Source of the DNA: Polyrhizophydium stewartii
Lineage: Eukaryota; Chytridiomycota; Chytridiomycetes; Rhizophydiales
Assembly (NCBI GenBank): GCA_027604665.1
Contig: JADGIZ010000135.1
Span: forward strand, 1-23,603
Direction: 5' to 3'
DNA length: 23,603 nt
Notes under the pieces: model-generated
Told to the model about the DNA's origin: nothing
What the model saw: the letters and a program-made list of their open reading frames with translations, nothing else
Databases searched by the model: none
Shown: one piece after another, positions 3,944-23,603 of the stretch
Layout of the letters: each line of letters starts with the position of its first letter
Position numbering within the stretch: position 1 is the first letter of the stretch
Position numbers and translations under genes: made by a program

Positions 3944-6900
3944 CTACGCGGAGTACGGGTTGCCATCATGGTAGCTGCACACAATTGTTGAGCACGCCCG
4001 TCTTGCAACACAACCTCCCAAACCGATCGACTTACATCACTGTGTTTGAAAGCCTGTCAAGGCAGGCAGGCCGGGTCGCAATCTTGTTGTAGCTCAGATT
4101 GCTGTGGCCGAGAATCAGCAAGGTGCGGATGCTTTCCAAATGTTGTCGCTGCAGCTCACAGTGTCCGTAGCTGCTGCATCTCGCCCAAATCGTCCGGTAG
4201 ATCGACAAGCAAATTGCTGCTCACAAGGCTGCGCACCTGTCGCATCAGCATCTGGAAAGCCACAAAACAAAGCTACATGACGCGCTTACAGGTGCTCGAG
4301 CATCCTGAGATTCGATATGCCCTCTGGAAGCTGGACAAGCAGATTGCTGTTGAGATCGCTGTTTTGCAAAGGGGGCACGTCAGACACACTGAAGCCGGAT
4401 TCTAAGCCGCTGCAATCACCCACAGCTGCTTGAGTCTTTCGAGCTGCGCGGTTGACGGCGGTAGACTGGAGAGTTGGTTGCTGCTCAGATATCTGCACAA
4501 AAAGCACGTCAGATGAGCCGAGGTGCAAAGCTCTTCCAGGCGGACGCCACGCACAGCTCTTGGATGGACTTTAGCCGACCAAAGGCTTCAGGAAGGCTTT
4601 GAAGCCCATTAGAGCCAAGATGGCTTCGGATAAACATATCAGCAGCTGTATCCATGTGCCGCGCGAATGTGCGGTTGCAACGCACAGTCTGACAAGCGAC
4701 TTGAGCTCGATAAACGAGTCTGGAATGCTGGTACGGCGGTTGTCAAAAAGGGATCTGCAAATCCGCCATGTCAGCCCTTCCAACAGCGTAAATCCGACAC
4801 CTGCTTGCGATTCTGACAAGAATTTGAGCTGTCTGAGCCGGCCAAAGGACTTTGGAAGCTCAGTCAGCTGATTCTCGTCCAAAACCCTGCAGTCGCGCGC
4901 GTAAGCCACCAACCGCAGATAAGCTGCAAACGGATGAGACCCACAGGTTCTCCAACTTGCAGATGGAGCCAAACGATTCTGGTAGACTCTCAATTGAGTT
5001 TCCGGCGAGATCGCTGCAAGCACCAGATATCAGTTTCAGGGCCAATACATCAAAGATTCAACAATCCGAGGCTTACAGCATCTTCAGATGCACCATCCCG
5101 CCAAGGGACTCGGGAAGGCCTTGCAGCCGACAGTATGCGAGAGACCTGAGCAGCAGCATGCTCAGTGGTGCATGCGCACTTGGCGAGAGAGCTGCACTTA
5201 CAGCTGTTTGAGCCGATTGAGCCGCCCAATCTGATCCGGAAGCTCTCCGAGTTGATTGCCGCTCAAATCCCTAAAAGGAGCGTGTGTCAGCTTTGCCAAG
5301 AACAGAAAACATACATCGCCGCTTCTGCGCACAGTTTTGTGAGTTGCATGAGGTCGATGAACGATTGCGGCAGGGCAGAGAGTTGATTCGAGCTTAGATT
5401 GCTGCAGATTCATAGTCGGCCTTCAATGGACACTCGAGATGGCAACCATGCAAGCAGCCTCACAGATCTTTGAGATGTGCGAGCTTGCCAAAGCCGGCTG
5501 GCAGGCTCTCCAACTGATTGTGCTGCAAATCTCTGCGGAGCAGCTTCAGCATAAGATATAACCGCCTGTTTCGACAAAACTGCTGCTTACAAGTCTGCGA
5601 GTTGCACCAGCTTGCAAAGCGAATCGGGCAGCACCTTCAACCTGTTGTGGGGAATTGTGCTAATCGGCGCACCATAAGTCACGCATTAGCATTGCCCTCA
5701 AGTGGGAAGCTCGGCAGCCTAAACCTACAGCTTCTCGAGGTGGGCAAGGTCGCCAATGCTTTCAGGCAGCTCGTTGATGCGGTTGCCGTCAAGGTTGCTG
5801 CATTGGCCGAGTTAGCAGCAGCAAGTATCATTAACTCGACATGTCCAGCACGGCATACAGCTCGGTAAGATTGGCTAGTCGTCCAATGTCAGCGGGCAGG
5901 TCGGAAATGCCCGAGTCGCCATTGAGCTGCTTTGTGTGCGATAGATTCCTGCCCAAAGTGCCGAGTCAACATGCACACTGCAAGCTATCGCCTACGGCAG
6001 CTTGGTCGGACTCACAAGATTCGCAGGCTCTGCATGCTTGTGATGGCTATGGGGAGCTTCTCGATCTTGCAGTCAGAGAGGTTGCTTGAAGCACAGGCTG
6101 ATGTCAGAATCAGATGCTGTGCTGCAAGCAAGAACACGCGTATCCTACAGAATCTCGAGCAGCTGCATCTCGCCGATTTGCTCGGGCAACTCCTTGATGT
6201 TGTTTCCTGACAGATTGCTGCACATGGACGTCAGTCCTGCCGTGGCGGATGCATGGCCTTATGGCTGCGCATGAAACGCACAGAATCTTGAGCTGTTTGA
6301 GGCTTGCGAGGGCATCTGGGATCTCATCCAGCCCGCAGCCAGAGATGTCGCTGTTGTGCTGCTGTCAGCACACAGTCAGTGCCTGCAAATCAGCCTGGCG
6401 ATCACAACTTACAGCTCGACAAGCTGTGTGAGCTTCGAAATGCGAGTTGAAATCGGTCCCCTGAGCTTGTTCTGGCCGATACGCCTGCGCCGCGTGCTGT
6501 CAGCCCGTGAGCAGTGACGTCGCGCACCAATATGCACGCACAAGGACGTCAGATTGCGCAGTCCAAACAGCTTGGCAGGTATCTCGCCGTGGAGCTCGTT
6601 CTGGTCAAGCCAGCTGCCACCCGGTTGGTCAGCAGTGCAGGCAGCATGTCGCTCGCAGCCAAACGCAACTCACAGCGTCCTGAGCTCAGTCAGGCGACCC
6701 AGATCCTCAGGAATGCCGCCAGAGATTCCTGAGGCTGTGAGACGGCTGCAGCACAAATCAGCACCGCCCGTAGCAGCCTCCCAAGGTGCATGGCGCGCAA
6801 GCGTACACTCACAGGGCAGTCAAGTTGTGCTCGGCGTCCCAATCGAGTCGCCATTTGACCGTGCTGCGCTGCGTTGTTGTGTCAAATATAAACACAAGAT

Positions 6901-8993
6901 CGCCGTGTGGGTTGTTGCTGCTTAATGTAATGCCGCTATCCCTGGTCCAGTCTGGGAACGCAGCACAGAGAAGCTCAATGTCCGATGCACCGGGACGGGC
7001 GAGCTCAGGCTCTGCAGAAAATGAAAAGGGTCAGCGATCCCTCGAAAACAGAGGCATGATTATGCAAAACGCACCCATCTTGAGCTTGTTGTTAAGCCTG
7101 GAGATAAACTGGTCCAGGTTCGGGCGGATGTTCGGAATCTGCATTTTAGCTTGAATGAATAAATCGAATAGCTGCCTGTCAAATCCTTCTGGATTGTCAA
7201 GATATGAGGTTCTGACTTGGGCTGGCTCCTTGCCAAGCACGATCGACAGCGCCATGACGCCGAACGAGAAAATATCATGCTTCGCATCTGGCTTGGATCC
7301 AGCCTTGGATGCCTCCGGGGCGGCAAATGCATCCGCGTTGGAATCGGTTTTGCTGGGCTTGCCGATTCCGACAGCTGGCACAATCAGCACCTTGGTGACC
7401 TGGATCTCGCGCACATCATCGACCATGCGCTCCTTGATTTCTGCGCTCAGACATCAACCCGCTGTCAGCAATGTGGCGCGCAAGCGGCTGAATCGTGACC
7501 TACAGCATCTACGCACCAACGCGCACATGGCGCATGGTCAAGCTGCCGTGCACAATCGGCGCATCTGGAGCTTGCTCGTGCAGGTACTTGAGCCCGCGCG
7601 CGATGCGCAGCAGGATTCTGAGCTTGTTGTCCTGGCTGAGGTCAGGATGATCTTTGACAAGCGACTCGAGGTCGTACTCGACGAACGGAAGAGCAATGAA
7701 CGGCCCGCGGACCGTCTGTTTGTCCTTGGCGAGGCAGATGCCCGTGAGCTGCAGCAGGTTCGGGTGGTTGGCGTTGAACCAGCGGTGCGCCTCGGCTTCG
7801 AGATCGTCCTCGCGGCCCTCGATGCCGTCGTGGAACTCCTTGATCACAAACGGACTGCCATCCATCTTGGCCTCGAACACGCGGAACGAGCCCGACGAGT
7901 CGAGCGGCTTTGGCGCAATCATGAAGTCGTCGTGCCGCAGCAGCAGCGTGCGCGGGCGGAGCAGTCTGCAGCAGCGGCGAGTGCACAGGTTAGCGGCGCA
8001 CGACAGGCAGACGCGCGGTGCGGCACAAGTTCACGCACGCAAGCATCTTGTCGGCCTTGACATCAATGATGTTGAGCTGCTCAGCCATGCGCATCAGCAT
8101 CATGGCGCTGTCGACCTGCATGGCAAGCGACAGCAGCTCCTTGATCTTGCCAAGCTTCTTGCGCAGCGACTCGACCTGCGCGGCCATCTTGGTGCTGGCG
8201 CCACCCAGGAGCGCACGCCATGTCTTTGCGTCGGCTTTGGCGCGCTCGACAGCCGCGTTCGCCTCCTTGAGTAGCGCGACAAGGTCGCTGCACTTGCTCT
8301 GCACATCGGCCGAGAACCACTGGTTGGCCATTGGCGCAATGATCGCCTTGATCTCGCCAAGGGCGTCGCAGAACGCCTGCATAATCTTGGGTGCATCGCG
8401 GCTGTCGCCGATGTTCTTGAGGATCTTGTCGATGATACCGATGGCGATGCCAAGGCCCGGCACGGGCACAAAGTCGGCGGCGACCTTGGCGACATTGACA
8501 ATGGTCGAGGCGATCTCGAGGCCATTCGCAGCCAGAAAGCGCGTGGCAGCTTTGACGCCTTTGGAGCCAGCATCGCTTGTTTTGGCTATGAGTTGAGCAA
8601 ACTCAACAAGCGTGCTGGCCTTGTTGAGCGCGCTGCCGATCTCGCCGGCGCTCGGGACTGATATGCTTGGATCGACATGCTTGACAAGCGTGTCGAGTAC
8701 CGTGGCGATAGTATCCTTATTCTGCAAGCATGTGCACGGCGATGGTCAGCACTGAGATCGAGACGCATATGGACAACACGCACGCAGCGCACCTCGGATG
8801 CAGCTCCGACGCCCGACTTGACGGCCTTGAACACATTCTCCAAGGCAGGGTCAGATGAGACCTTGGCCGGCGGTTTGTCGTCGACTTGCTTGGCAGCTTC
8901 GGCGGCAGCTTCGGCGTCCATGATGCGGCCGCGCAGATCAAAGCATGAGTCGACGATGTCGTCCATGGCACGCTGGATGTCGCTGTTGGACAT
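3944..8993 (-). CDS. MLKL/HeLo-like helical bundle - pseudokinase - 21 LRR protein
   Basis: Exons: 8993-8793, 8721-8039, 7965-7517, 7440-7075, 7011-6813, 21 LRR exons between 6745 and 4036, and a last one 3974-3944. They sum to 3405 nt, a clean 1134-residue frame. Residues 1-294 are helical, with PVPGLG at 153-158 and WRALL at 235-239, typical of MLKL N-terminal/HeLo-like four-helix bundles that permeabilise membranes in regulated cell death. Residues about 310-560 are a kinase fold: Lys337 (FVIKEF) and a helix-C Glu are kept, but the glycine loop is poor, HRD is HGS (434-436) and no DFG is visible before the APE at 485-487, so it is probably catalytically dead. Residues 567-632 form a linker like a plant LRR N-cap, then LRRs to the end. 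A role as ligand-triggered cell-death or immune protein is inference. An upstream exon from the ATG at 9358 (to about 9139, joining at 9082) may extend the N-terminus. Confidence 0.72.
4036..6745 (-). repeat. Array of 21 one-repeat LRR exons with phase-2 introns
   Basis: LRR exons (minus strand): 6745-6674, 6613-6542, 6484-6413, 6350-6282, 6217-6149, 6084-6016, 5948-5859, 5797-5729, 5659-5591, 5532-5464, 5401-5333, 5270-5202, 5145-5077, 5013-4945, 4886-4818, 4754-4686, 4623-4555, 4492-4424, 4358-4290, 4228-4160, 4101-4036. The first three are 72 nt and carry the plant-type G-x-I-P consensus (ISGGIPEDLGRLTELRTL). The others are 69 nt with SHOC2-like L-P-x-x-x-x-x-L, except repeat 7 (90 nt) and repeat 21 (66 nt). 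Every intron is phase 2 and splits the same leucine codon; introns are 56-69 nt. Symmetric exons can be gained or lost without frame damage, which suggests growth by exon duplication. Confidence 0.88.
7075..7965 (-). other. Pseudokinase domain within the LRR protein
   Basis: Two exons (7965-7517 and 7440-7075, intron 7516-7441) code for the kinase fold. Visible subdomains are: loop DSSGSFRVFEAKMDG; VAIK-like FVIKEF; NHPNLLQLTGICL; hinge PFIALPFVEYDL; catalytic loop VHGSLTMRHVRV in place of HRDLKxxNxLL; APE in FAAPEAS; subdomain IX DIFSFGVMALSIVLG. The HRD aspartate, the loop asparagine and the DFG aspartate are all replaced. MLKL itself couples a four-helix bundle to a pseudokinase, which is why the pairing here matters. 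Confidence 0.75.
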
Positions 8994-9138
8994 GGCCGGG
9001 TCGGCGCGGACAGCCCTTGCGGCCCTGTCGAGCAGCGCAAGCAGTTGGTCGCGATGCTGCTGAGGATGGTCGGCGCGGGGTTCAAGCTGCAACCGCGTGC
9101 CATGGCACCAGCCGCGGTAGGCATGCTCGCCTCCTGCA

Positions 9139-9358
9139 GCACGGGCTCGACCTGGCCAGCACCGTCACGGGGCTGCGGGTGGGCGGACCCTGCTGGAGGG
9201 TTTTCTGAAGGCAAGGGCTGGGCGGGACCGTCGTCGTCTTGGATCGTGATGCACCATGGCAGGCAGAAGACGTTGCTGCGCCTCGTGCGCGGCTGCTTGG
9301 GCGTCGGCAGTGCGGCAGGGGCGGAGCTTTCGGGTTGGCCGTCGTTGCTGCTGTCCAT
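9139..9358 (-). other. Possible 5' exon of the helical-bundle/LRR gene
   Basis: From the ATG at 9358-9356 the frame reads a Pro/Ser-rich segment containing RRSNVFCLPWCITIQDDDG. A 56-nt intron (GTGCTG donor near 9138, GCAG acceptor near 9083) would join it in phase 0 to the frame ahead of the ATG at 8993, where a helix (DQLLALLDRAARAV) precedes MSNSDIQ. No convincing branch motif is seen, so this exon is tentative. Confidence 0.3.
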
Positions 9359-11223: not shown

Positions 11224-12229
11224 GAAATCTACCTCGACCCGGCCATCCGCAACTGGGTGCTCCTGCCCATCATGCTCGTGATGGTGCTCGTCGGCCTGCT
11301 CCGCCACCACGCCACGCAGCTGCTGCAGTCGACCCCAAAGGCCAACATCAAGCAGCTGCGCGAAAAGTGCGTGCCTGCGTCCGACCCGCCGGTGCATCTG
11401 CCTCGGCCTTGCTGACGGGCGTGCGCTGCCGACCTCGCCGCCAGCGCCTCGCTCATGCGAGCCCGCATGCTGCGCTCGCCCAACGCCTTTGAGCTGCCGC
11501 ACTCGTCGTTCGAGTCGCGCAAGGCCTTCTTCACAAAGGCGTTTGAGAAGGGTGTCTATCTCAAGACGCCCGTCGTCGACAACAACGGCCAGCCGCCCAA
11601 CCCAATGTCGGACCCCGGCGCGATGGAGCCGATGATGGACATGCTCAAGAAGAACATGGCCATGATTGTGCCGCAAACGCTGATCATGAGCTGGGTCACG
11701 TTCTTCTTCACGGGCTTTGTTCTGAGTGCGTCTGCCTGTCCGCAATCGCGCCTGTACCTCACGGTCTGACCGGCTTGCTCGCGCAGTCCGCCTTCCGTTC
11801 CCCCTGACGCTGCGCTTCAAGGCGATGCTGCAGCGCGACATCCAGACTGCGGATCTGGACGTCACCTGGGTCTCTGCGCTGTCGTGGTACTTTTTGAACT
11901 TATTCGGCCTCCGCAGCATCTTCACGCTTATTCTGGGCAACGCAGACTGTGAGTTTTGGGGCGATCCGAGCGTTGCGAATGGATTGCGTTTTGCTGATCA
12001 GCCCTGTTCTCGGCCATTGGCGACAGCCGCCGATGGAATGCAGGACATGCAGCAGATGCAGATGGGTGCCCCGCAGCTGCAGCCGCCGGCCGAGGTCGCC
12101 AAGACGTTCCAGAGCGAGAAGGAGTTCCTCGAGCTCACGGTGCACTCGTGGAGCATCGAGAGCGCGGACGAGCGGCTTCTCCGCCAGTACGGCAAGCTGC
12201 CTGCGGAGACCAAGTCCAAGAGTGCCTGA
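11224..12229 (+). CDS. EMC3: ER membrane protein complex subunit 3
   Basis: EMC3 is the Oxa1/YidC/Get1-superfamily core of the ER membrane complex, which inserts tail-anchored and multipass helices. Exons: 11224-11366, 11445-11725, 11787-11948, 12027-12229; introns 61-78 nt; frame consistent, 262 residues. Visible landmarks are [20 protein letters not shown] (first membrane helix), [57 protein letters not shown], then [13 protein letters not shown] and [18 protein letters not shown], all as in human and yeast EMC3 (about 250-260 residues). The first exon carries only the start Met and perhaps a few residues. Candidates are ATG 10736 (spliced at 10751) or ATG 10871 (spliced at 10885 to the acceptor at 11217); neither is proven and both need introns longer than 300 nt. 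Confidence 0.92.
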
Positions 12230-13479: not shown

Positions 13480-15821
13480 ATGACGATTTCAAAGATCAAC
13501 AAGGCGCTCAAGCCGTTCAACACAGGCGACATCAAGGTCCTTCTGCTCGAGGGTGCGTGCATCCAGCCTGGCGCCGCTGCAGCGTCTCGGTCGCGGCACC
13601 GCCCACGACCACGACTCCCATGCTGCCGGCTGCGGGAGGCCGACCAGCGACGCCAGCGGTGCTCGCTGACACGTGTCGCCACAACAACACTCGCCTGCGC
13701 CGTCCCGCCTGCCGCCGCGGCCCACGCCGCTCCGCCCGGCCGCATGCCCTGCAGGCGTCAACGAGACGGGCGTCAAGATCCTCAAGAACGCCGGCTACCA
13801 GGTGCGCCGCCTCCGCCCCGCCGCTCCACCTCGCCCCGGGGGCAGCGCGCTGCGAGGGCGATGGTGCAGCGATGGAGCGACGATGGCGCTGACTCTGATT
13901 TGTCATTCCCCCCACCACCACCAACATCCCCCGCACCGCGCTGATCGGCGACCCCGACGCACCTTGGGTGCCGCCTGCCGCCGCTCGCTGCGTCGTCGGC
14001 TGCGATCGGCGGCCAGGTCGAGACGTTCGCCAAGGCGCTGCCCGAGGAGACGCTCAAGGAGAAGATCAAGGACGTGCATGCCATCGGCATCAGGTGCGCT
14101 TCGCACGCCCCCGACCCCGCATGCGGCCGCGGCATCGCACTCGCCATCTCTCTGCGGCTGCCGCGATGGCAGCGGGGCACTCGACCGCTGCGAGACGCCG
14201 CATGCTGATCCGGCGCGATCCCGCGACTTTCTCCGAAATTGCGTCATCCTGGGTGATATTCCGGGCTCATCTCCGCTCGCCGCCGCCCCCCACCCCCACA
14301 GGAGCAAGACGCAGCTCACGGCCGACGTGCTCAAGGAAGCAAAGAAGCTGATGGCGATCGGCTGCTTCTGCATTGGCACGAACCAGGTCGATCTCGAGTA
14401 TGCTGCCGCGCACGGCGTGAGTGTGCTGCTCCACGACCGCGGTGAGGTGTGCGATGCCTCTTGTGCATGGCTGACACGCATCCTTGCGCGGAACGCAGAT
14501 CTCTGTCTTCAACTCGCCTTTCAGCAACAGCCGCAGCGTTGGTGCGCTGGCGCTGCTCCCGTGCTCGCGCGGGACTTGTGCTGACAAACTCTCGCAGCCG
14601 AGATGGTGATTGCCGAGATCATTGCGCTCTCGCGCCAGCTGGGCGACCGCAACACCGAGATGCACAACGGCACTTGGAACAAGGTGCGCCAAGCAGATAA
14701 TGCAAGCCATGTCTGGCTCATTTGCGGATCTGCATTCTGACAGCTGTGCTGCCTCCAGACGGCCGCCTCGTGCAAGGAGATCCGCGGCAAGACGATCGGC
14801 ATCATCGGATACGGCCACATTGGCAGCCAGCTGTCCGTGATTGCCGACTCGCTGGGCATGTCGGTCATCTTTTACGACATTCTGCAGATCATGCCGCTCG
14901 GCACGGCAAAGCCTGTCGGCTCGCTCGACGAGCTGCTCAAGACGGCCGATTTTGTGACGCTGCATGTCCCCGAGACGGACGAGACCAAGGACATGATTGG
15001 CGCCCGAGAGATTGGCCTGATGCGCAGGGGCTCGTATCTTATCAACGCCTCGCGCGGCACGGTCGTTGACATCCCCGCCCTCAAGGAAGCGCTCATGTCG
15101 GGCCACCTCGCCGGCGCCGCCGTGGTGCGTTGCTGGCTTTGCTGTCCTGGCCGCATCGCATGCTGTCCCGGATGCTGAGATGCGACTGACAATTCGCCGC
15201 ACAGGACGTCTTCCCCGTCGAACCCTTCACGAACGGAAAGAACTTTGCAACCGAGCTCATTGGCTGCCCCAACACGATTCTGACGCCGCACATTGGCGGC
15301 TCGACCGAGGAGGCGCAGTCGTCGATCGGCATCGAGGTCGGCTCGGCGCTGACGCGCTTCATCAACACGGGCTCCACACTCGGTGCGGTCAACTTCCCCG
15401 AGGTCGATATTCGCTCGCCGTCGACCGATGCCAACACGGCGCGCATCATCAACTGCCACCAGAACGTGCCCGGTGTGCTCAAGGCGAGTCTGCGCGCACT
15501 TTTGGGGCTCGTGCCTGCAGGACAGCACCGGCTGACGCCACGCGCTGGGCACCCCTCCGACAGCAAATCAACCGCATCCTGTCCGAGTTCAACATCGAGA
15601 AGCAGATCTGCGACTCCAAGGGCGGCGTCGGATACCTGCTTGCGGATATCGTGGTTGACAGCGAGAAGGATCTCGCCAGGATATACGAGAGCATTTGCGC
15701 TGTCCAGGGTGAGCGTGCTGTCGGGGCTTGCGGTTGCAGTGTCGGCAGAGTCGCTTCTGGTTTGGTCGCTGACAACGACCAAATGCCCGCAGAGAATATT
15801 GTCACGCGTCTTCTGTATTGA
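13480..15821 (+). CDS. SER3: D-3-phosphoglycerate dehydrogenase
   Basis: This enzyme oxidises 3-phosphoglycerate to 3-phosphohydroxypyruvate with NAD+, the first step of serine synthesis, in the cytosol. Ten exons: 13480-13552, 13755-13801, 14017-14093, 14302-14416, 14499-14541, 14598-14683, 14759-15124, 15205-15483, 15564-15708, 15793-15821; 1260 nt, 419 residues. Seen: FNSPFSNSRSVAEMVIAEII, the Rossmann motif G164-Y-G-H-I-G169, Arg246 in NASRGTVVD, Glu275 in DVFPVEP, His298 in TPHIGGSTEEAQ, and a C-terminal ACT domain from about residue 360. The shape matches fungal SER3/SER33, with an N-terminus about 50 residues shorter than yeast. Introns 1-3 are 202-215 nt, the rest 56-84. Intron 8 (15484-15563) has a GC donor. 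The gene converges on CEP120. Confidence 0.96.
15484..15563 (+). other. GC-AG intron in the phosphoglycerate dehydrogenase gene
   Basis: The homologous protein is continuous from VPGVLK to INRILSEF only if the exon ends at AAG|GCGAGT and resumes after CCGACAG, in phase 0. No GT donor nearby keeps the frame. GC-AG introns are the known minor class of U2 introns and favour strong donor pairing, as here. Confidence 0.7.
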
Positions 15822-15985: not shown

Positions 15986-18900
15986 CTATTTGATCCCGCG
16001 GTCGATGCTCACGGGCGACGCCATCAGCCCTGCAATACGCGCATCAAACTCGCGCATGGTCTCGTCGTCGCGGCGGTAGATGCCCGTCGCAAGGAGGCGG
16101 TCGCGCTCCTTGGTCAGACGCTCAATCTCGGCGCTCGTCGCTGGGTCCATGGCCGCAGGAGGTCCTGCGCCGCTCGGGTCCTTGACCGCACTCCGCGAAC
16201 CGCCGGCGGCAGTGGCAGCGGCGCCCGCAGGCAGCCCCGCGCCGAGGGCCATCAGATCGCGCTTGGCCGACTCGAGCGACGCCTGCTCCGCGTGCACGAG
16301 TCCGAGATGCTCCTTGGCCATGATCTGCACGCGCATGCGCTCCAGGTCCTTGCGCTCATTGAGCAGCCGCTTCTCGGCCTCGGCGCTCGCCCTGCCGCGC
16401 TCCTTGGCCAGCTCGGCAAACAGACGCCGCAGCTCGGCCTTGTAGTACTTTTTGCTCTTCTTGAGCGTATCAACAAGCCGCTCGAGACCGGCCTTGGCCT
16501 CGATCGCATTGGCGAGCTCGACGCGCAGCGCCGACTCGGTAGACCCGGCCATCGCGCGGCGCAGCTCGGCCATTTCGGCGTCGAGCGCGCGGTACCGCGC
16601 CTCCATCTCGTCGCGCTCGCGCAGCGCCTTGGCACGCATCGAGTCGGCCTCGACCGCGCGCGACTTTTCCATCTCGACGCGGTGCCGGAACTCGTCCTGC
16701 AGCCGCCGCGTGGCGTCGCGCGCCTCGTCCAGCTGCCGCTGCACCTGGCGCTCGAGCTCGTCGCGGCGCCGGGCGAGATCCGCCTCGCCCGCGCGCACCA
16801 CCTGCTCGCGCGCCTCCAGATCGCGCGAAAGCGTCTGCATCTGCGCCTCGAGCTGCTTGTAGTCCTGCAGCTTGCGCTTCAGAAGCGCCTCGCGCTCGCG
16901 GTCGCGCTGCTTCCACTCTTGCGCGAGCCGCGCCGTCAACTGCGCCTCGCGCTCGGCAAGATACCGCTTGAACTTGATCTCCTCTTCCTGCCGCCACAGC
17001 TCGAGCTCGAGCGCGACGCGGTACTCTTGCGACTCGTGGATGCTCGACAGGGCGGGGGTGCCCTCGCGCGGCGCACTGCCGCCAGGCACGCCGAGCATGC
17101 CGCCGATCTGAGCAGCACCGTTGCCGCCGCCGCCGGGCTTGCTGCGCTGAGGCGGCGTGGCGGCATCGGTGCCTTGGAACCGCAGCCCCGAAAGATACGC
17201 GGCCGTCGCGCGCGCATCCGACGCAGCAGCGACGCCAGCGCCTGTGATGCCCGACCCCGTCGGCGCGGGCGGTACCTGCGCCTGACGCGGTGCGTGCTGC
17301 CTTGGCTGCATCGGCTCCGGAGCGACGGGCGGGGCGACCCGCGGCTGCCCAGCAGGCGACACATCCGCATCGGGCAGCTCCTCGACAGGGCCAAAGTCCT
17401 CAAGCGCGAGCACCACGCGCAGATCCGCGACGCGGTTGTACGCCTTGGCGGCTTCGCCCGTCGACATCACGGGCACAAACATGTCGACACTCTGGATGAC
17501 GATGCGCTGCTCGCTGGATCTGGCCGCAGGCGACCTTCCAGCCCCGCTTGATCCCGCCACGCCCGCCGCGCTGTGCACCTTGTCCGCGGCCAGCACCGGC
17601 GCCAAGTCGACCGACGCGTTGCCGAGCAACACATCGCGAGTGTTCTCGTCCCTGTGCCACATCTCGACAATCAGCGGCACGGCGTCCAAGTACGTCGAGA
17701 GCCTTTCGGGGCTCATGACAAACTCGAACGCGCAGAACGAATGCGGGAGCAGCTCCTCGTTGGGAGTGCGCTGGATGTGCGTCGTCGGGTGCGTCAGGAT
17801 CGGCGACGCCGTGCCAAAGGGTGTGTAGGCGTACTTGAGATACACGTTGGCCGACTTGATCTGCACATCGCGCAGCGAGCGCAGCTCGATCGAGAAGCGG
17901 AACTGGTGCCACGGCGCAATCGTGCTGCGCGGCGGCGGGGAGCCCGGGGATCGCACCGTCGAGGCGTTCAACGCAGGGACGCTTGCCATGATCGGCCGGG
18001 TCGATGGATCTGGCGCGGTCGGCGGCTCCCCCATGCGCACGTCTGCAAAGCGCTGATCGTCTGGCACAGGCGGAGCCCGCGCGGATGCAGGTCTGGCTGG
18101 TGCTCCTGCTGCGGATGCTGCTGCTGCTGCGGATGCTGCAGTGGCAGCTGCCATCTGTGCTGGAACGACCGGCGATGCAGCCCGCACCGACGCAGGTGCG
18201 GTCGCCGCTGCCCCTTGATCCCGCGGTGCCGTCGTGGCCGCCACCTCTCCGACAGATAGCGCTGAGATGGGCCTGCGCTGGTCCTGCGCCGCAGCGCCGA
18301 GCGAAAGGGCCATCGAGACGCCGATGCTCGGGGCGATGCCTTGCGCAGACAGCGGCAGCTCCTCGCGAGCATTGTAGAGCGGAAACACCTTCTCGATGAT
18401 GGCCATGTCGCTGGCCGTGTCCTCGAGCAGCGGCGTGAGCGGCACGTCGGCGAAGCCCACAACACGGCTGTCGTGGCACAAGTACATGACGATGTGGGCC
18501 ACCTCGCGGAAAAAGGTGCGCAGGTCGTCGAGCGAGGCGCGGAAGCGCACCGAGACGCGCTCGGCGGGGAAGTTTGGGCTGGCGAGGTCAAAGAAGCGGT
18601 GCGTCATGATATCGTTTCCAAGGAACGTGTAGTAAAAGTAGAAGCCGCCGTTGGCCGTGGGCTGCGGCGCCGGGTCTGCATCGTCGAGCAGGACAGAAAG
18701 ATGCTCGGCAAAGGCAATTGTGATCCAAAAGTTGAAGAACATGGCGCCGTCGCCGACTTGGTAGAAGCCGTCGCTCTTGAGCTCGATGGGCACCGAGGTG
18801 TAGTTGGCGAGCGCGGTGCGAGTGCGCTGGGCGCTGACGTTGCTCATGCCAGCGACGGCTCCAGGTGCTGCGGTGGCGCCGAGTCCCGATGCCGACCCAG

Positions 18901-19636
18901 ACGGCGCAAGTCGGCCTCCGTCGCGGCGAGCCGACGGTCGTGTGCCAGGCCGCGCGCGGTTGGCAGCACCGCCAGCGCCGCCAAGCGCAGCGTCTGCAGC
19001 GAGCTCGGCAGACATGGCGCCGGCTGCTGCGCCGGCCTCCTGCCTGGGCTGCACCGTGAACGACAGGCGGATCTCTGGCCGGAACGCAGGCGGAGGCGCA
19101 GCGGGCTGCTGCTGCGTCTTGCTGTGGACGAGCCCGAACCAGCGCTCCGGGAACGGCGGCGGGCCCTGCGTGGCCGCGCGCAGGTCGAGCATGACGTAGC
19201 CCAGGCTGTCGCGCTTGTTGGTGGCCGAGTCGATGGCGTAGCACACCAGCTTGAGCGACGCACGCTGCGAGCGAAGGAAGCTGAGCACCTTGGACTCGAC
19301 GTCCCATGCGAGCTCTGTGTCCCAGATGGGCGTGGGCGTGTGGTCGGCGGGGTCGGTGGTCAGTATCTCGCTGTTGAAGCGGCACTGGATGTACAGCTTG
19401 GAGCTGGGCTTGCGCTGGAAGTTGCGGCCTGCGGGGTGTGCAGCCGACACGGCGGCCGTGTGTTGTCAGCATGTGGCGGCACTCGGGAGCGCTGCGTGCA
19501 GGGGGAGCGGCCGCGGTGGCAGGCGGCCGCAGCATGTGCGGGGCGCGCCTGCGCCTGCGCCTGCGCCGGGGGCGGGGGCGGGGTGCGCACCCTCGAGCAC
19601 GGTGACCTGGACCGTGTACTGCCCCGACCGGGCCAT
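15986..19636 (-). CDS. CEP120: Centrosomal/basal-body protein CEP120
   Basis: CEP120 drives centriole elongation, appendage formation and ciliogenesis. Exon 1 (19636-19591) codes for MARSGQYTVQVTVLEG; intron 19590-19429 (162 nt); exon 2 is one uninterrupted 3443-nt frame; 1162 residues against 986 in human. C2-A spans about 5-140, with a strong CEP120 signature (FNSEILTTDPADHTP, ELAWDVESKVL, KLVCYAIDSATNKRDSLGYV). A second C2/DUF3668 region spans about 213-385 and a third C2 about 523-690, joined by Ala/Pro-rich linkers. A long coiled coil covers about 815-1080 (EIKFKRYLAEREAQLTARL, KKSKKYYKAELRRLFAELA), matching the vertebrate C-terminal dimerisation region. The frame and start are well supported because exon 1 supplies the missing first beta strand. 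Its presence indicates a flagellated fungus. Confidence 0.94.
19543..19567. repeat. GCGCCT hexamer repeat in CEP120 intron 1
   Basis: Nearly four copies of GCGCCT run through 19545-19567, followed by a G-rich run to about 19582. All lie inside the 162-nt first intron of CEP120, which may explain why it is longer than most introns here. Confidence 0.75.
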
Positions 19637-19678: not shown

Positions 19679-20995
19679 TCATTGCACCGGCCGGACAGAC
19701 GCCTCGGCATCGGCGTCCCCCTCGGCGGCGGCGTCGAGCTCTTCCGCAGGGGCTGAGACTGCCGCCTTGTGTATCATCATCAGCGCCAGGATGAGCGGCA
19801 GATGCACCAGGCTCGAGAAGAACAGCTTGCGCGCGGAGCCGTCGGTCGAGTCGCGCCAGAAGCGGAACGCGCACCACGCCATGTATCCGTTGACGAGCGA
19901 CGAGTCGAGCAGGAACCAAGGCGTGACGATGCCGAGCGCATAGACGGCGTACGACAGCGGAAACAGCACGAGCGAGTAGCGCAGAGCAACGCGGGCATTG
20001 AGCCCCGGATCGACGACCGACATCATGCGGTAGCCGGCCTTGGAGTAGTCCGGCCGCAGGTTCCACGCCAGCGCGTTGAAGTGCGGGAACTGCCACGCAT
20101 ACAGGATGGCGCCGAGCACCCACGCGCCGAGCTCGAGGCCGCCCGTGCACGCGGCCCAGCCCATCATGGGCGGGATCGCGCCGACGATGCTGCCGGCCCA
20201 GGTGTTGGCAATCGACGTGCGCTTCATGGGGGTGTAGATGCATGTGTAGATGATGATGTTGAGGCCGCCCAGGAAGGCCGTGATGGGGTTGACGAGGGCG
20301 TACAGCATCGCAACGCCCGTGACGCCCGAGGCGGTGCCGGCCATGAAGGCGTGCGCGGGCGACATGCCCTGGCGCACCAGCACGCGGTTGCGGGTGCGCG
20401 CCATCTGGGCGTCGTACGGCGCCTCGACCCACAGGTTGATGGAGTTGGCGGACGCGACGCACAGCGCCGTGCCGACGGTCGTCCACACCAGGCTCGCGAC
20501 GCTGGTGGCGCCCGGCGCCATGGCGTAGCCCGCCATGGTCGTGAGGACCACAAAGGCTGACAGCTTGGCCTTGGTCAGGTCTTTGTAGAACGACAGCTGG
20601 AAGTCGGGCTCCAGCTTCCATCGCAGGTGGACGTCTGCGTCCGGCTCGAGCGGCTGATCGGTCGGCGCGCCGGGTGCGGCCGGCGCCTGCACCTGTGCTT
20701 TCGGCGCCGCTTCAGCCTGCGCTGCCGGCGCAGCAGCCGCCGCCGATGGGCCTGTTGCCGGCCCCGCGGCGGCCGCCGAGGCCAGCGCTGCGGATGGCTG
20801 AAGCACGACCGCACGGTGTGACGTGTTCGCGCGGGTGGTGTGCATGCGGGGCCGCGCTGCGACAAGCAGCAGCGGCAGCAACGGCGGGCGGTGCGCGGCG
20901 GTCGCGAGGCGTGCGGGGGCGAGCGCGGGCAGCGGCCGCGGTGGTGTGAGCGGGCAGCGCCATGCGCGGGGCAACGCCGCCGCTGTTCTCAGCAT
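19679..20995 (-). CDS. COX10: Protoheme IX (heme B) farnesyltransferase, heme A synthesis
   Basis: COX10 transfers farnesyl to heme B to give heme O in the inner mitochondrial membrane, needed for cytochrome c oxidase. Single exon. The ATG at 20995 starts an Arg/Ala-rich presequence (MLRTAAALPRAWRCPL) and gives 438 residues; the frame is open further upstream but without leader character. After a low-complexity Ala/Pro stretch, the UbiA prenyltransferase core begins near residue 125 (LSFYKDLTKAKLSAFVVLTT). The polyprenyl-binding motif is N187-x3-E191-x3-D195 in SANSINLWVEAPYDAQMART, as in eukaryotic COX10. The second conserved block reads WQFPHFNALAWNLRPDY then SKAGYRMM at about 301-325. Several hydrophobic helices are visible. 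The stop lies 42 nt before the CEP120 ATG. Confidence 0.96.
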   Translation of the reverse strand: MLRTAAALPRAWRCPLTPPRPLPALAPARLATAAHRPPLLPLLLVAARPRMHTTRANTSHRAVVLQPSAALASAAAAGPATGPSAAAAAPAAQAEAAPKAQVQAPAAPGAPTDQPLEPDADVHLRWKLEPDFQLSFYKDLTKAKLSAFVVLTTMAGYAMAPGATSVASLVWTTVGTALCVASANSINLWVEAPYDAQMARTRNRVLVRQGMSPAHAFMAGTASGVTGVAMLYALVNPITAFLGGLNIIIYTCIYTPMKRTSIANTWAGSIVGAIPPMMGWAACTGGLELGAWVLGAILYAWQFPHFNALAWNLRPDYSKAGYRMMSVVDPGLNARVALRYSLVLFPLSYAVYALGIVTPWFLLDSSLVNGYMAWCAFRFWRDSTDGSARKLFFSSLVHLPLILALMMIHKAAVSAPAEELDAAAEGDADAEASVRPVQ

Positions 20996-21572
20996 CGACG
21001 CAAAGTGCTCCAACACAAAAACGCATCCGCCTCGGCCCCAAATCGGCGTGCACCCCACCACCGACTCGCGAGGCCCCAAGGGCATGCGTAATAAAGTGGG
21101 GGCTCCACCCCTCTTCAACACACACACAAACAGCCCACCACCGACGTGGATATCGCTTCCTGGATATTCGCAATCGTCGCTGGTTGTTCTCATGCTGCTC
21201 AAGGGCAGCCCGAATCGCCAGGAAAGGTCGCTTCTTGGGCGAGCTTGTGCGACTCAACACGAACGAGCATCGAGTCGCGCTCGGCAAGCCAGCGAGAGCT
21301 AGTTAAGAGATGGAGCAGGATTGATGATGCCGCCGGTGCTCATCAACCATTTCATTCGCTGCTCAGTTTGGTCTCATCGCTTTCTCGCACACGATCACGA
21401 CCCGGTTGTTATCGGGCGTCGCAAGAATCGTCGCGGTGCTTGTACTGTTGCGGCGTTTGAAGAGTGCGCCGCATGCAGCATATGCCAGCTAGCTTGGGCA
21501 GACCGACCGCTCGCCCGTCTCCCCGGCTTTGTCGCAGATCCGGTCGCTTCGCAAGTTTACCCGCCGACAGGA
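20996..21572. promoter_or_regulatory. Divergent COX10/TFB1 intergenic region
   Basis: The 577 bp between the two divergent start codons must hold both promoters. It includes a short CA run at about 21118-21128 and a plus-strand AATAAA at 21090-21095 that matches no gene end. Short frames here have no recognisable protein. No TATA box is evident. Confidence 0.45.
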
Positions 21573-23603
21573 ATGTCGTTCTCGTGCCCAGCGTCGTTCC
21601 GCAAGCGCGACGGCGTGCTGGCGGCGGGGCCGCGTGCGCTCAAGTGGACCGACGGCGCGGCGGGCACTAGTGCCGAGCCCGAGCTGCTCATCCCATATGA
21701 GGCCATCAAGGGTTCGTCACGCCTTGCGGGCAGGGCGAGGTCCAGCCGCCGAGGCGAGCGCTGACGAGCAATCGGACGGCCGTCTGGGGCGGCACCTGGT
21801 CGCGGCTGGCGCACGACGCAGCCCAGCTGGTCAACACCCCAGGCCCGTCGGGCAAGGTCCTGCTACAGCTGTCGCTTTCGCCGCCCGGCAGCTCGGCCGC
21901 CGAGGTGCTGCGCAAGTTGACCTTCACGGGGCCGAGCGCCGAACAGGACCGCGACCGCATCACCGGCGTGGTCGCGACGCACATTGCGGCCAACCGGCAG
22001 CGCGCGGCGGGCGGGCAGCCGGCGGCCGCTGCGGCACCGACAGCGTCGGCTCCCGCAGCAAGCGGCGCCGCGCCGCCGAGCGCGGCAGAAGCCCAGCGGC
22101 CTCGTCTGACGGCGAGAGATATCCAGGCGAGGAAGGATCTGCTTCTGCGCAACAAGGAGCTCGCGCGGCTTCACAAGGAGCTCGTCATCAGCGGGCTTAT
22201 CAGCGAGCACGAGTTCTGGGAGAGCCGCAAGGTGCGTATAATGGCGCACATGTCCGGCATCTATGCTCTGCTTGCTCACGCCCCCGGCTGGCAGCAAACC
22301 ATTGTCAACCAAGAGTGGCAGGCGACCCAGAAGCGCGGCACGTCGTCGAGCTCGCTCGTGGACATCAAGCCGTCTGCCGAGGGCGACGGGTCCGAGATCA
22401 AGTACAAGCTGACGCCCGAGATCATCCACTCGATCTTCCTGCAGTACCCGGGAGGTGCGGCGGCCCGCGCCGCGAAACGTGCTGCGCAGACCGCGGCTGA
22501 CGTGCGGTGCCGGATGCGGCGGCAGTGCACCGAGCGTACAAGGACCATGTGCCCGAGAAGCTTTCCGAGAAGGAGTTCTGGTCCAAGTACCTGACGTCCA
22601 AGTACTTTCACCGCAACCGCACGACGGCGGGGTTATCGCGCGACACCAAGGATCTGTTTGACGAGTACATGCAGGACGACGAGAACGGTGTGTCTGGAGC
22701 CGGCCAGAGTGCGCGATGTAATCGCTTGGGATGTGTGCGGTTGCTGATCTGGGTTTATCTGCGGTCGGCCAGACTCGACGCTCAACCCGCAGGGGCTCAA
22801 CTTCTCGGCGCGAAACCAGCTGATTGATCTAACCACGACGGCCGAGGACCACGGAGAGGTGCGATTGCACGACGTGGCTGCGGCAACAAGGAAGTCTTGC
22901 TGACTGCTCGCGCGGGCGGCTGTGCAGACGGGCAACCGGCCAGATCTGACGATGCGGGCAGGGTCTGTGCGGACGTCACTGCCGCTGATCCGGCGGTTCA
23001 ACCGACACTCGACGCTGATCCTCAAAAACGCTCTGTGGGCGAGCGATCTGATGCGCCCGCGCAATCATGCAGCCGTGCTGACGCGAGGCTGGGACGTGCG
23101 TGTGTGCAGCGGCAGCACTGTGACGAGCGAGCCGCCGAGCGCGGCCGAGTCCAAGGCACTGTTTGACAAGGCACGCCGGCCGTGTTGCGAGCGTGCGGGA
23201 GAGGGATTGTCTCGGGCTGACGCTGGATCCGCGAGCAGGAAACGGTGCTCGACGACCTGCAGCCGGTGCGCGAGAGCCGGCTGGCGCTGCTCAGCATCCA
23301 GGACCCGTCCAAGTACTTTGGGTCTCTGATCCAGCAGTCGCGCGGGGCGGACGGCACCGGCGTCGCGGGCGAGGTGCGTGACTGCAGCTGCGGTGCACGA
23401 CCGCCGTTGGGTGGCTGACGATCGGGTTGGCGCTGCGGCGGGGCAGGCGCTTCGCGCGTTTGGCGAGCGGATCCAGGGCTGGACGCTGGGGATCTCGCAG
23501 CTGCAGTTTGCGGCGTGCCAGTCGGACGCGGGCTTCCGGCAGGTGACGGAGCTCGGACGCAAGCGGCGGCGGGTCGATGCGGCGGGCAGCACTGGGGCGG
23601 TGG
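21573..23603 (+). CDS. TFB1: TFIIH subunit Tfb1/p62, 3' end beyond window
   Basis: Tfb1/GTF2H1 is a core TFIIH subunit for RNA polymerase II initiation and nucleotide excision repair. Exons: 21573-21711, 21822-22231, 22295-22454, 22526-22687, 22773-22858, 22928-23034, 23110-23170, 23239-23373, 23447 to the edge; the eight complete exons give 420 codons in frame. The N-terminus is a PH domain (SFRKRDGVLAAG, LVNTPGPSGKVLLQLSL). Two BSD domains follow: LVISGLISEHEFWESRK with LVDIKPSAEGDGSEIKYKLT, then AYKDHVPEKLSEKEFWSKYL ending in SKYFHR. Further conserved blocks are LPLIRRFNRHSTLIL, then VLDDLQPVRESRLALLSI and QDPSKYF. Intron 23035-23109 is a multiple of three and lacks stops, so an unspliced reading is possible. 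Intron 23171-23238 seems to be GC-AG. Confidence 0.93.
23171..23238 (+). other. Probable GC-AG intron in TFB1
   Basis: Conserved Tfb1 sequence resumes at ETVLDDLQP after GCGAGCAG. The only donor that keeps the frame from LFDK is AAG|GCACGC, phase 0, with a GGCTGACG branch motif inside. Nearby GT sites lead to a wrong frame. The alternative acceptor three bases upstream cannot be excluded. Confidence 0.55.

Follow-up and report, generated by a model that had tools for sequence, protein, structure and literature searches.

A chytrid gene family combining a candidate MLKL-like helical head, a pseudokinase and leucine-rich repeats

Gene structure

The window, that is the whole stretch of 23,603 nucleotides analysed here (Polyrhizophydium stewartii, contig JADGIZ010000135.1), contains a predicted gene on the minus strand (9358-3944), with 28 exons encoding 1,224 codons followed by a stop. 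All 27 introns of the model are of the GT...AG type. The product is composed, in chain order, of a basic N-terminus, a helical domain, a pseudokinase, a cap and 21 leucine-rich repeats (LRRs). Its features are the following:

9152..9358, minus strand: exon 1, N-terminus with basic-aromatic stretch RTRRSNVFCLPWC; donor and start codon predicted
8793..9056, minus strand: exon 2, first helical segment HRDQLLALLDRAARAV...; similar sequence at seven other loci
8039..8721, minus strand: exon 3, main helical domain with PVPGLG, WRALL and the MLKL_N-like part (Pfam)
7517..8576, minus strand: shared cassette of helical exon (3' part), intron 3 and kinase N-lobe exon (blastn)
7966..8038, minus strand: intron 3, 85-93% identical in four paralogues
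7517..7965, minus strand: exon 4, pseudokinase from N-lobe to catalytic loop, with the FVIK lysine and HGSLTMRH
7075..7440, minus strand: exon 5, pseudokinase C-lobe, without DFG
6813..7011, minus strand: exon 6, linker and LRR cap (DIELLCAAFPDW...WRLDWDAEHNLTAL)
4036..6745, minus strand: exons 7-27, each with one LRR (21 in total), every exon in phase 2
3944..3974, minus strand: exon 28, final residues YHDGNPYSA and stop

The public record HK105_001153 of P. stewartii matches this gene in a truncated annotation of 786 amino acids. A preliminary description of the locus had proposed a single gene with an MLKL-like head, a pseudokinase and LRRs; the one-chain model with 28 exons bears this out, with the kinship of the head moderately supported. 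The start codon given there has to be replaced by one 90 residues further upstream, because exon 2 has similar sequence at the seven other loci and the public paralogue protein P0003 carries the inferred exon 1-2 junction. The motifs PVPGLG (153-158) and WRALL (235-239) are both present as described, in the numbering of P0001, to which the full model adds 90. By eye, CAG followed by CAC, CAT or CGC marks the exon 2 acceptor at six of the seven similar loci as well as in the window, C660 being the exception. Exon 1, with its predicted start codon and donor, is the least certain part of the model. Similar basic-aromatic stretches occur in some paralogues (KRRSYFRLFRR in C57, KRGGVFKLFGR in C409); the exon sequence itself is not conserved, its piece N0 giving no match to the paralogues at E<=0.01.

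Pseudokinase and leucine-rich repeats

The window protein matches Pfam PK_Tyr_Ser-Thr at E 3.9e-11, and its kinase part finds plant receptor kinases from E 3.1e-11, followed by MLKL pseudokinase chains from 8.3e-8. As noted before, the kinase fold lacks HRD and DFG: the catalytic loop reads IVHGSLTMRH, with HGSLTMRH in place of HRD....N, and no DFG follows. The lysine of the VAIK position is retained (FVIK), so that the protein shows the MLKL-type combination of a kinase fold with the VAIK lysine and without HRD and DFG. All 17 public records in the alignment, a set that includes certain genes in two versions, keep the lysine and have the HRD aspartate replaced; DFG is absent from the aligned stretch of every record, P0012 lacking part of the later region.

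The LRRs are matched by Pfam LRR_14 at E 3.5e-60, and the 21 repeats counted previously correspond to 21 exons (sixteen of 69 nt, three of 72, one of 90 and one of 66), every one entered in phase 2. The first three are 24-residue repeats (GGIP, GEIP, GPIS), the later ones mostly of 23 residues. The number of LRR exons across the family loci ranges from about 9 to 40, as counted by a script; the script for LRR-unit identity proved over-stringent for repeats of the IP type. Amino-acid change was not in excess in the LRRs of exons 7-11 compared with C253 (pN 0.030, pS 0.045).

A NACHT or NB-ARC switch, whose absence had been pointed out, gave no match in the window protein at E<=1, and NCBIfam returned just LRR and kinase matches, all below their cut-offs. 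No strong hydrophobic segment is present in the window protein, the highest 19-residue hydropathy being 1.64. Judged by hydropathy, by HGS and by the missing DFG, the active kinase of LRR receptor kinases and their transmembrane helix, located between LRRs and kinase, are both absent, and the window protein is probably soluble and intracellular.

Helical head

The Pfam MLKL_N profile matches the exon 3 piece at E 3.4e-5 with 23.8 of the 27 bits of the cut-off; assignment of the head to the HELL type likewise stays under the cut-off. The similar stretch covers residues 131-215 of the 231-residue piece and only positions 45-126 of the 142 of the profile. When the whole assembly was scanned in six frames, the window head reached 24.1 of 27 bits and seven MLKL_N matches were obtained. 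Five of these, which are not independent of each other, belong to the LRR-pseudokinase family and stay below the cut-off; the sixth, above it, is located after a kinase array; the seventh (C123) was taken as false, since it reads by eye as a dynein heavy chain. One of 14 control genomes had an MLKL_N match at E<=1. MLKL_N was found at E<=0.1 in 9 of the 17 public records (best E 2.8e-4), none being above the cut-off among the matches listed for them.

Other comparisons gave fainter signals. A profile of 11 helical domains, compared with 177,635 distinct PDB sequences, had chains of At5g66900 as its top hits, without significance (E 0.23). A 142-residue piece, compared with the PDB as a single sequence, found Rtt103 (E 0.022) and further proteins first; we judged these hits to be chance. 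The Foldseek check proposed earlier was made on a poor structure model of exon 3 alone (pLDDT 53) and gave 307 matches at E<=10, none at E<=0.001; FAT domain and catenin helical bundles among them were set aside. Neither HeLo nor HeLo-like is among the Pfam families listed for the 17 records and for the window protein. RPW8 matched at a single site of the assembly (C541, E 0.06), outside the LRR-pseudokinase family. Because MLKL_N stays below the cut-off yet is specific in the whole-assembly scan, we regard the kinship of the head with MLKL as moderately supported, not proven.

Family and segmental exchange

A search for the same domain order elsewhere, as the preliminary description had advised, was successful. 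The helical, kinase and cap blocks follow each other in the same order at nine loci of the assembly, including the window, with LRR exons behind them. The order recurs in a second genus, in the separately annotated BC831DRAFT records of Entophlyctis helioformis. Because it is kept at nine loci and in another genus, the architecture of the gene is not due to chance. The family has been found so far in these two chytrids; protein searches with alignment A4 (9 of 11 cut rows; A5 holds 11 of 17 rows) and with the head of C474 brought in four further records, all of these two species, besides the protein of C474 itself and five plain kinases. The family tree comprises 15 of 21 records, six being excluded (three as second versions, three as partial), and is drawn without the unannotated loci C253, C57 and C218.

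Exons 3 and 4 and the intron between them are common to the window and four paralogues, and the blastn blocks of C161 and C57 both begin at 8576. Later introns, the C-lobe and the LRRs have diverged in three of these four. Exon 5 is diverged between most paralogues and 98% identical to C253. Such a conserved cassette with diverged later parts, newly described here, looks like a signature of segmental exchange. Amplification and segmental exchange are more usual for recognition families.

The same assembly contains 34 places that match exon 4 at E<=1e-8, several of them with intact catalytic motifs. Compact helical-head kinases form runs on C623, C562, C418, C649, C311 and C518 and occur also on C474; their heads adjoin kinases with HGD and DFG motifs. 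C575 and C310 combine a head of the compact type, an intact kinase and an LRR cap, the last recognised by eye in an open frame of C310. The C623 head matches PF17111 (listed as PigL_N), presumably the former Helo_like_N, at E 0.045, below the cut-off. Between window-type heads and the above-cut-off heads of the C623 type, hhalign gave 2% probability, and 12% (P 0.0023; reversed control P 0.052) when repeated with more rows, a likeness that is suggestive only.

Discussion

With MLKL of animals and plants, the window protein shares a helical head with MLKL_N likeness and a pseudokinase that keeps the lysine and has lost HRD and DFG. It differs in its LRRs, of which we know none in MLKL, and in a head similarity that stays under the cut-off. 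Plant LRR receptor kinases also join LRRs to a kinase fold, and CC-NLRs join them to a helical head; unlike both, the window protein has the order head-kinase-LRR, no transmembrane segment by hydropathy and no NB-ARC.

Fungal HELL domains are described in proteins with a kinase or pseudokinase (PMC12881547), that is with head and kinase fold in one chain, an order that the window protein fits. In the accessible part of that article no LRR is mentioned with them, while the chytrid protein carries a sensor of 21 LRRs. No published fungal LRR fusion of the HELL-kinase type was found in the literature searched, itself accessible in part, which to that extent agrees with the earlier remark that no fungal system with this order has been described. 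As far as the available portion of their paper goes, Soanes and Talbot (2010) reported four genes with LRRs and a kinase in Batrachochytrium dendrobatidis, without a transmembrane region (PMC2939053). They resemble the window protein in uniting both domains in one chytrid protein lacking a membrane helix; compared by description only, they differ in that no helical head is named for them there. No Batrachochytrium protein was listed in a protein search with the window protein. Fungal NLRs with HeLo/HELL heads likewise carry an executioner-type head and a repeat sensor in one chain, as outlined in the accessible parts of two articles (PMC9815663, PMC10197012), and differ by a NACHT or NB-ARC domain and mostly WD, TPR or ankyrin repeats, in place of which pseudokinase and LRRs stand here.

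Considering the observed gene structure, the order of the domains, the lost catalytic motifs, the lack of a strong hydrophobic segment, the family and the segments common to its copies, we propose, with about an even chance of being right, that the window protein is a soluble intracellular receptor, in which a head similar to the MLKL/HeLo superfamily is held by the pseudokinase, governed by the LRR sensor and triggers regulated cell death. The LRR solenoid would bind a non-self or altered-self ligand. The pseudokinase, which has lost its catalytic motifs and may still bind nucleotide, would relay the change. The helical head, aided by the basic N-terminus, would then move to the membrane or join compact helical-head kinases, and regulated cell death would be the outcome. 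Judged from its sequences, the family looks like one of fungal immune or self-recognition receptors. We put forward more tentatively, as possible though somewhat doubtful, that it belongs to an NLR-like, NOD-free innate system of chytrids, with an executioner cassette kept uniform by gene conversion, a sensor rebuilt from one-exon LRR modules and a necroptosis-like network formed with the compact helical-head kinases.

A rather unlikely alternative, still to be taken seriously, is an LRR-pseudokinase scaffold whose head serves as a dimerisation or adaptor module and which acts without cell death, in ordinary signalling for growth, development or stress via active TKL kinases. The many related kinases, several catalytically intact, offer potential partners, and the PDB, Foldseek and hhalign results are weak enough to leave the kinship of head and MLKL unproven; the specificity of MLKL_N in the whole-assembly scan and the amplification with segmental exchange argue against a scaffold. 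It is improbable that the LRR-pseudokinase is a sensor or decoy and that the compact helical-head kinases serve as executioners or as activators, in the way that RIPK3 activates MLKL: those heads do adjoin HGD/DFG kinases, and C575 and C310 join head, intact kinase and cap, but by hhalign the two types of head can hardly be compared. That splicing in the preliminary or the present model joined neighbouring separate genes is hardly credible, although the public annotation truncates the gene and seems to split one paralogue (P0019/P0020), since the order is kept at independent loci and in another genus, and the junctions agree with P0001 for exons 2-6 and with P0003 for exons 1-2.

The available parts of the sources present fungal immunity in terms of NLRs whose sensors are mostly WD, TPR or ankyrin repeats (PMC9815663, PMC10197012), report LRR receptors as almost absent from Fungi (PMC2939053), and describe P. 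stewartii as a saprophytic relative of Batrachochytrium (PMC12204190). A family in which an MLKL-like head and LRRs flank a dead kinase would, in an early fungal lineage, tie execution of the necroptosis type to sensing by LRRs. If the proposal of a NOD-free system is true, Fungi would have LRR-based intracellular immune receptors, and MLKL-type heads would have been joined to LRRs independently.

Gene structure and domains of the window protein

The minus strand from 9358 to 3944 carries a single gene model whose 28 exons comprise 1,224 codons, with GT...AG introns without exception. It codes for a basic N-terminus (exon 1), a helical domain or head containing PVPGLG (exons 2-3), the kinase N-lobe and C-lobe (exons 4 and 5), a linker with the LRR cap (exon 6) and 21 LRR exons, each entered in phase 2. 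The start at 8993 given in the preliminary description is internal: similarity of exon 2 runs upstream of it at seven other loci, and the exon 1-2 junction recurs in P0003, the public protein of a paralogue. The public record of the gene itself is P0001 (HK105_001153) of Polyrhizophydium stewartii. It shows 100% identity to the window protein over the searched part (96% of residues 70-640) and agrees with it by eye up to the end of exon 6, then lacks the LRR exons. The accessible text of PMC12204190 describes the species as a non-pathogenic, saprophytic relative of Batrachochytrium dendrobatidis.

Pfam recognizes the LRRs (LRR_14, E 3.5e-60) and the kinase (E 3.9e-11). The kinase fold does lack HRD and DFG, as had been noticed: HGSLTMRH replaces HRD....N and DFG is absent, with the VAIK lysine kept. 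All 17 aligned public records retain this lysine and replace the HRD aspartate by S, N or A; some pairs among them resemble two versions of one gene, and P0012 is without part of the later region. Peak 19-residue hydropathy is 1.64, near PVPGLG (up to 1.92 in relatives), and because no clear transmembrane helix is found in the window protein by this measure, the LRRs are probably intracellular.

The other window genes were assigned by family matches; those besides the Cep120 frame show no visible link to the LRR-pseudokinase:

11416-12226, plus strand: EMC3/TMCO1
14741-15175, plus strand: D-2-hydroxyacid dehydrogenase
15989-19465, minus strand: open frame matching Cep120 (DUF3668) and C2, as suits a flagellated fungus
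19682-21253, minus strand: UbiA-type prenyltransferase, COX10-like
21701-22591, plus strand: BSD-domain protein, match just under its cut-off

A family of paralogues in two species

Helical, N-lobe and cap blocks follow in the same order at nine loci of the assembly; the C-lobe block has no match at contigs C114 and C218.

LRR exons in chain at the nine loci, counted by script
Window: 21
C253: 11, 9 of them scoring well
C409: 26
C161: 40, counted up to where the stretch ends
C57: 25
C660: 30
C512: 20
C114: 11
C218: 21

Public records add two more P. stewartii genes (P0005/P0006 and P0007/P0008). Their best identity to the ten loci compared is at most 77% (P0005) and 49% (P0007), far from identical, and therefore the assembly may be incomplete. 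Nine family records come from Entophlyctis helioformis (P0009-P0016, P0018). A tree of 15 proteins, in which C114 has a long branch and unsure placement, puts the two species on opposite sides of one branch (100/99), which indicates amplification or homogenisation within each species. Protein searches, which rely on shared short words and scored about 8,000 candidates in each of two runs, gave no head match in any third species among the matches listed.

Several copies have peculiarities of their own. Two helical-domain matches with overlapping query ranges lie about 3 kb apart at C218 8995-12868, suggesting an insertion or partial duplication. At C660 (6220-6897, minus strand) a TGA interrupts the helical match and the gene is seemingly split into two proteins in public annotation, possibly a pseudogene or an annotation problem. 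Identical LRR units within P0010 of E. helioformis suggest recent repeat amplification. The cap also matches C454 (E 2.4e-7, with a kinase match besides), C117 (E 1.8e-5) and C176 (E 5.0e-4), possibly more distant LRR-kinase genes.

Probable segment exchange between copies

Compared with C409, C161 and C57, the window gene is 78-88% identical in exons 3-4 and 85%, 92% and 92%, respectively, in intron 3; identity falls to 39-72% in exons 5-27 and to 31-61%, about alignment noise, in introns 4-27. Local scores of intron 3 are 51-62 for these three and C253, versus at most 23 for shuffled sequence; they are at noise level in C660, C512, C114 and C218, as are those of introns 4, 5, 6, 9, 13 and 16 for C409, C161 and C57. 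With C253 the window shares an alike block that spans intron 2 through exon 12, its introns being 92-100% identical, and that breaks off sharply at intron 12 (39%). The presence of such similar introns beside unlike ones points to a process, gene conversion or unequal exchange, that would homogenise head and N-lobe and leave C-lobe and sensor to diverge. The comparison of synonymous with amino-acid change gave no sign of positive selection.

Compact kinases with helical heads

The C474 protein, 447 aa long (public HK105_203849), is without LRR. Its head is a homologue of the window family's (hmmsearch E 9.1e-23, with the open frames from 13 fetched stretches as the target set), and its kinase shows the motifs HGDLSTSN and NFN. 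Exon 4 of the window gene matches 34 places of the assembly at E<=1e-8, with runs on C623 (4), C562 (3), C418 (3), C649 (3), C311 (2) and C518 (2). The fetched stretches hold 40 kinase-matching open frames, including six rows from an overlapping C623 copy; among distinct frames the catalytic motif is HGD....N in 11, HGN in one and HRD in one, the rest lying outside the search pattern, and a DFG string occurs in 15, one of them apparently by chance. Heads of a second, C623 type lie on the same six contigs as the runs, and on C623 they alternate with kinases (positions derived by hand). C575 and C310 each carry on one strand a head of this type together with an intact kinase and a cap (by eye on C310), kinase and cap in a common open frame and the head in a different one; we infer one gene at each place.

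Probable kinship of the head with MLKL

The head is probably akin to the MLKL/HeLo superfamily, to judge from profile comparisons. Pfam MLKL_N stays below its 27-bit cut-off both in the full window protein (E 5.1e-4, 20 bits) and in the isolated helical piece (E 3.4e-5, 23.8 bits). Searching all 12.86 Mb of the assembly in six frames gave seven places at E<=1. C623 exceeds the cut-off (27.3 bits), and five are members of the window's family (20.9-24.5 bits; window 24.1), which as paralogues are not independent tests; the seventh, C123 (17.6 bits), reads by eye as dynein. One of 14 control genomes had a match at E<=1 and none exceeded the cut-off. MLKL_N matches nine of 17 public records at E<=0.1 (best E 2.8e-4); P0019, seemingly one half of a split paralogue, gives E 0.11, and the C474 protein has no match. 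Among eight C623-type heads one passes (28.0 bits), five do not match and the remaining two are weak matches, with E 0.039 and 0.044. When a profile of 11 heads was searched against PDB sequences, chains of At5g66900, which we take to be the CC-RPW8 protein NRG1.1, held the top two ranks at non-significant E values (0.23 and 0.3); three of the 18 rows at E<=10 belong to this protein. Against the kinship count the other proteins that come up when a single head is searched against PDB, the colinear but weak alignment of window-type with C623-type heads, and the poor quality of one structure model of the head.

Relation to described systems

In the possibly incomplete assembly, NB-ARC has no match at E<=0.01 and NACHT one place over cut-off, on C7. 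According to the accessible parts of the sources, fungal HELL domains occur in proteins with kinase or pseudokinase (PMC12881547), MLKL-family proteins among early-diverging fungi are reported from Glomeromycotina only (PMC8778642), and LRR receptors are almost absent from Fungi, B. dendrobatidis having four LRR-kinase genes without transmembrane regions (PMC2939053). No description of the head-pseudokinase-LRR architecture was found in the literature searched, which scarcely covered subscription journals and preprints.

The anatomy, the family and the shared segments are direct observations. For function we give even chances to a scheme in which the LRRs would sense, the pseudokinase would serve as a latch, the head would act at membranes and the compact kinases may take part.
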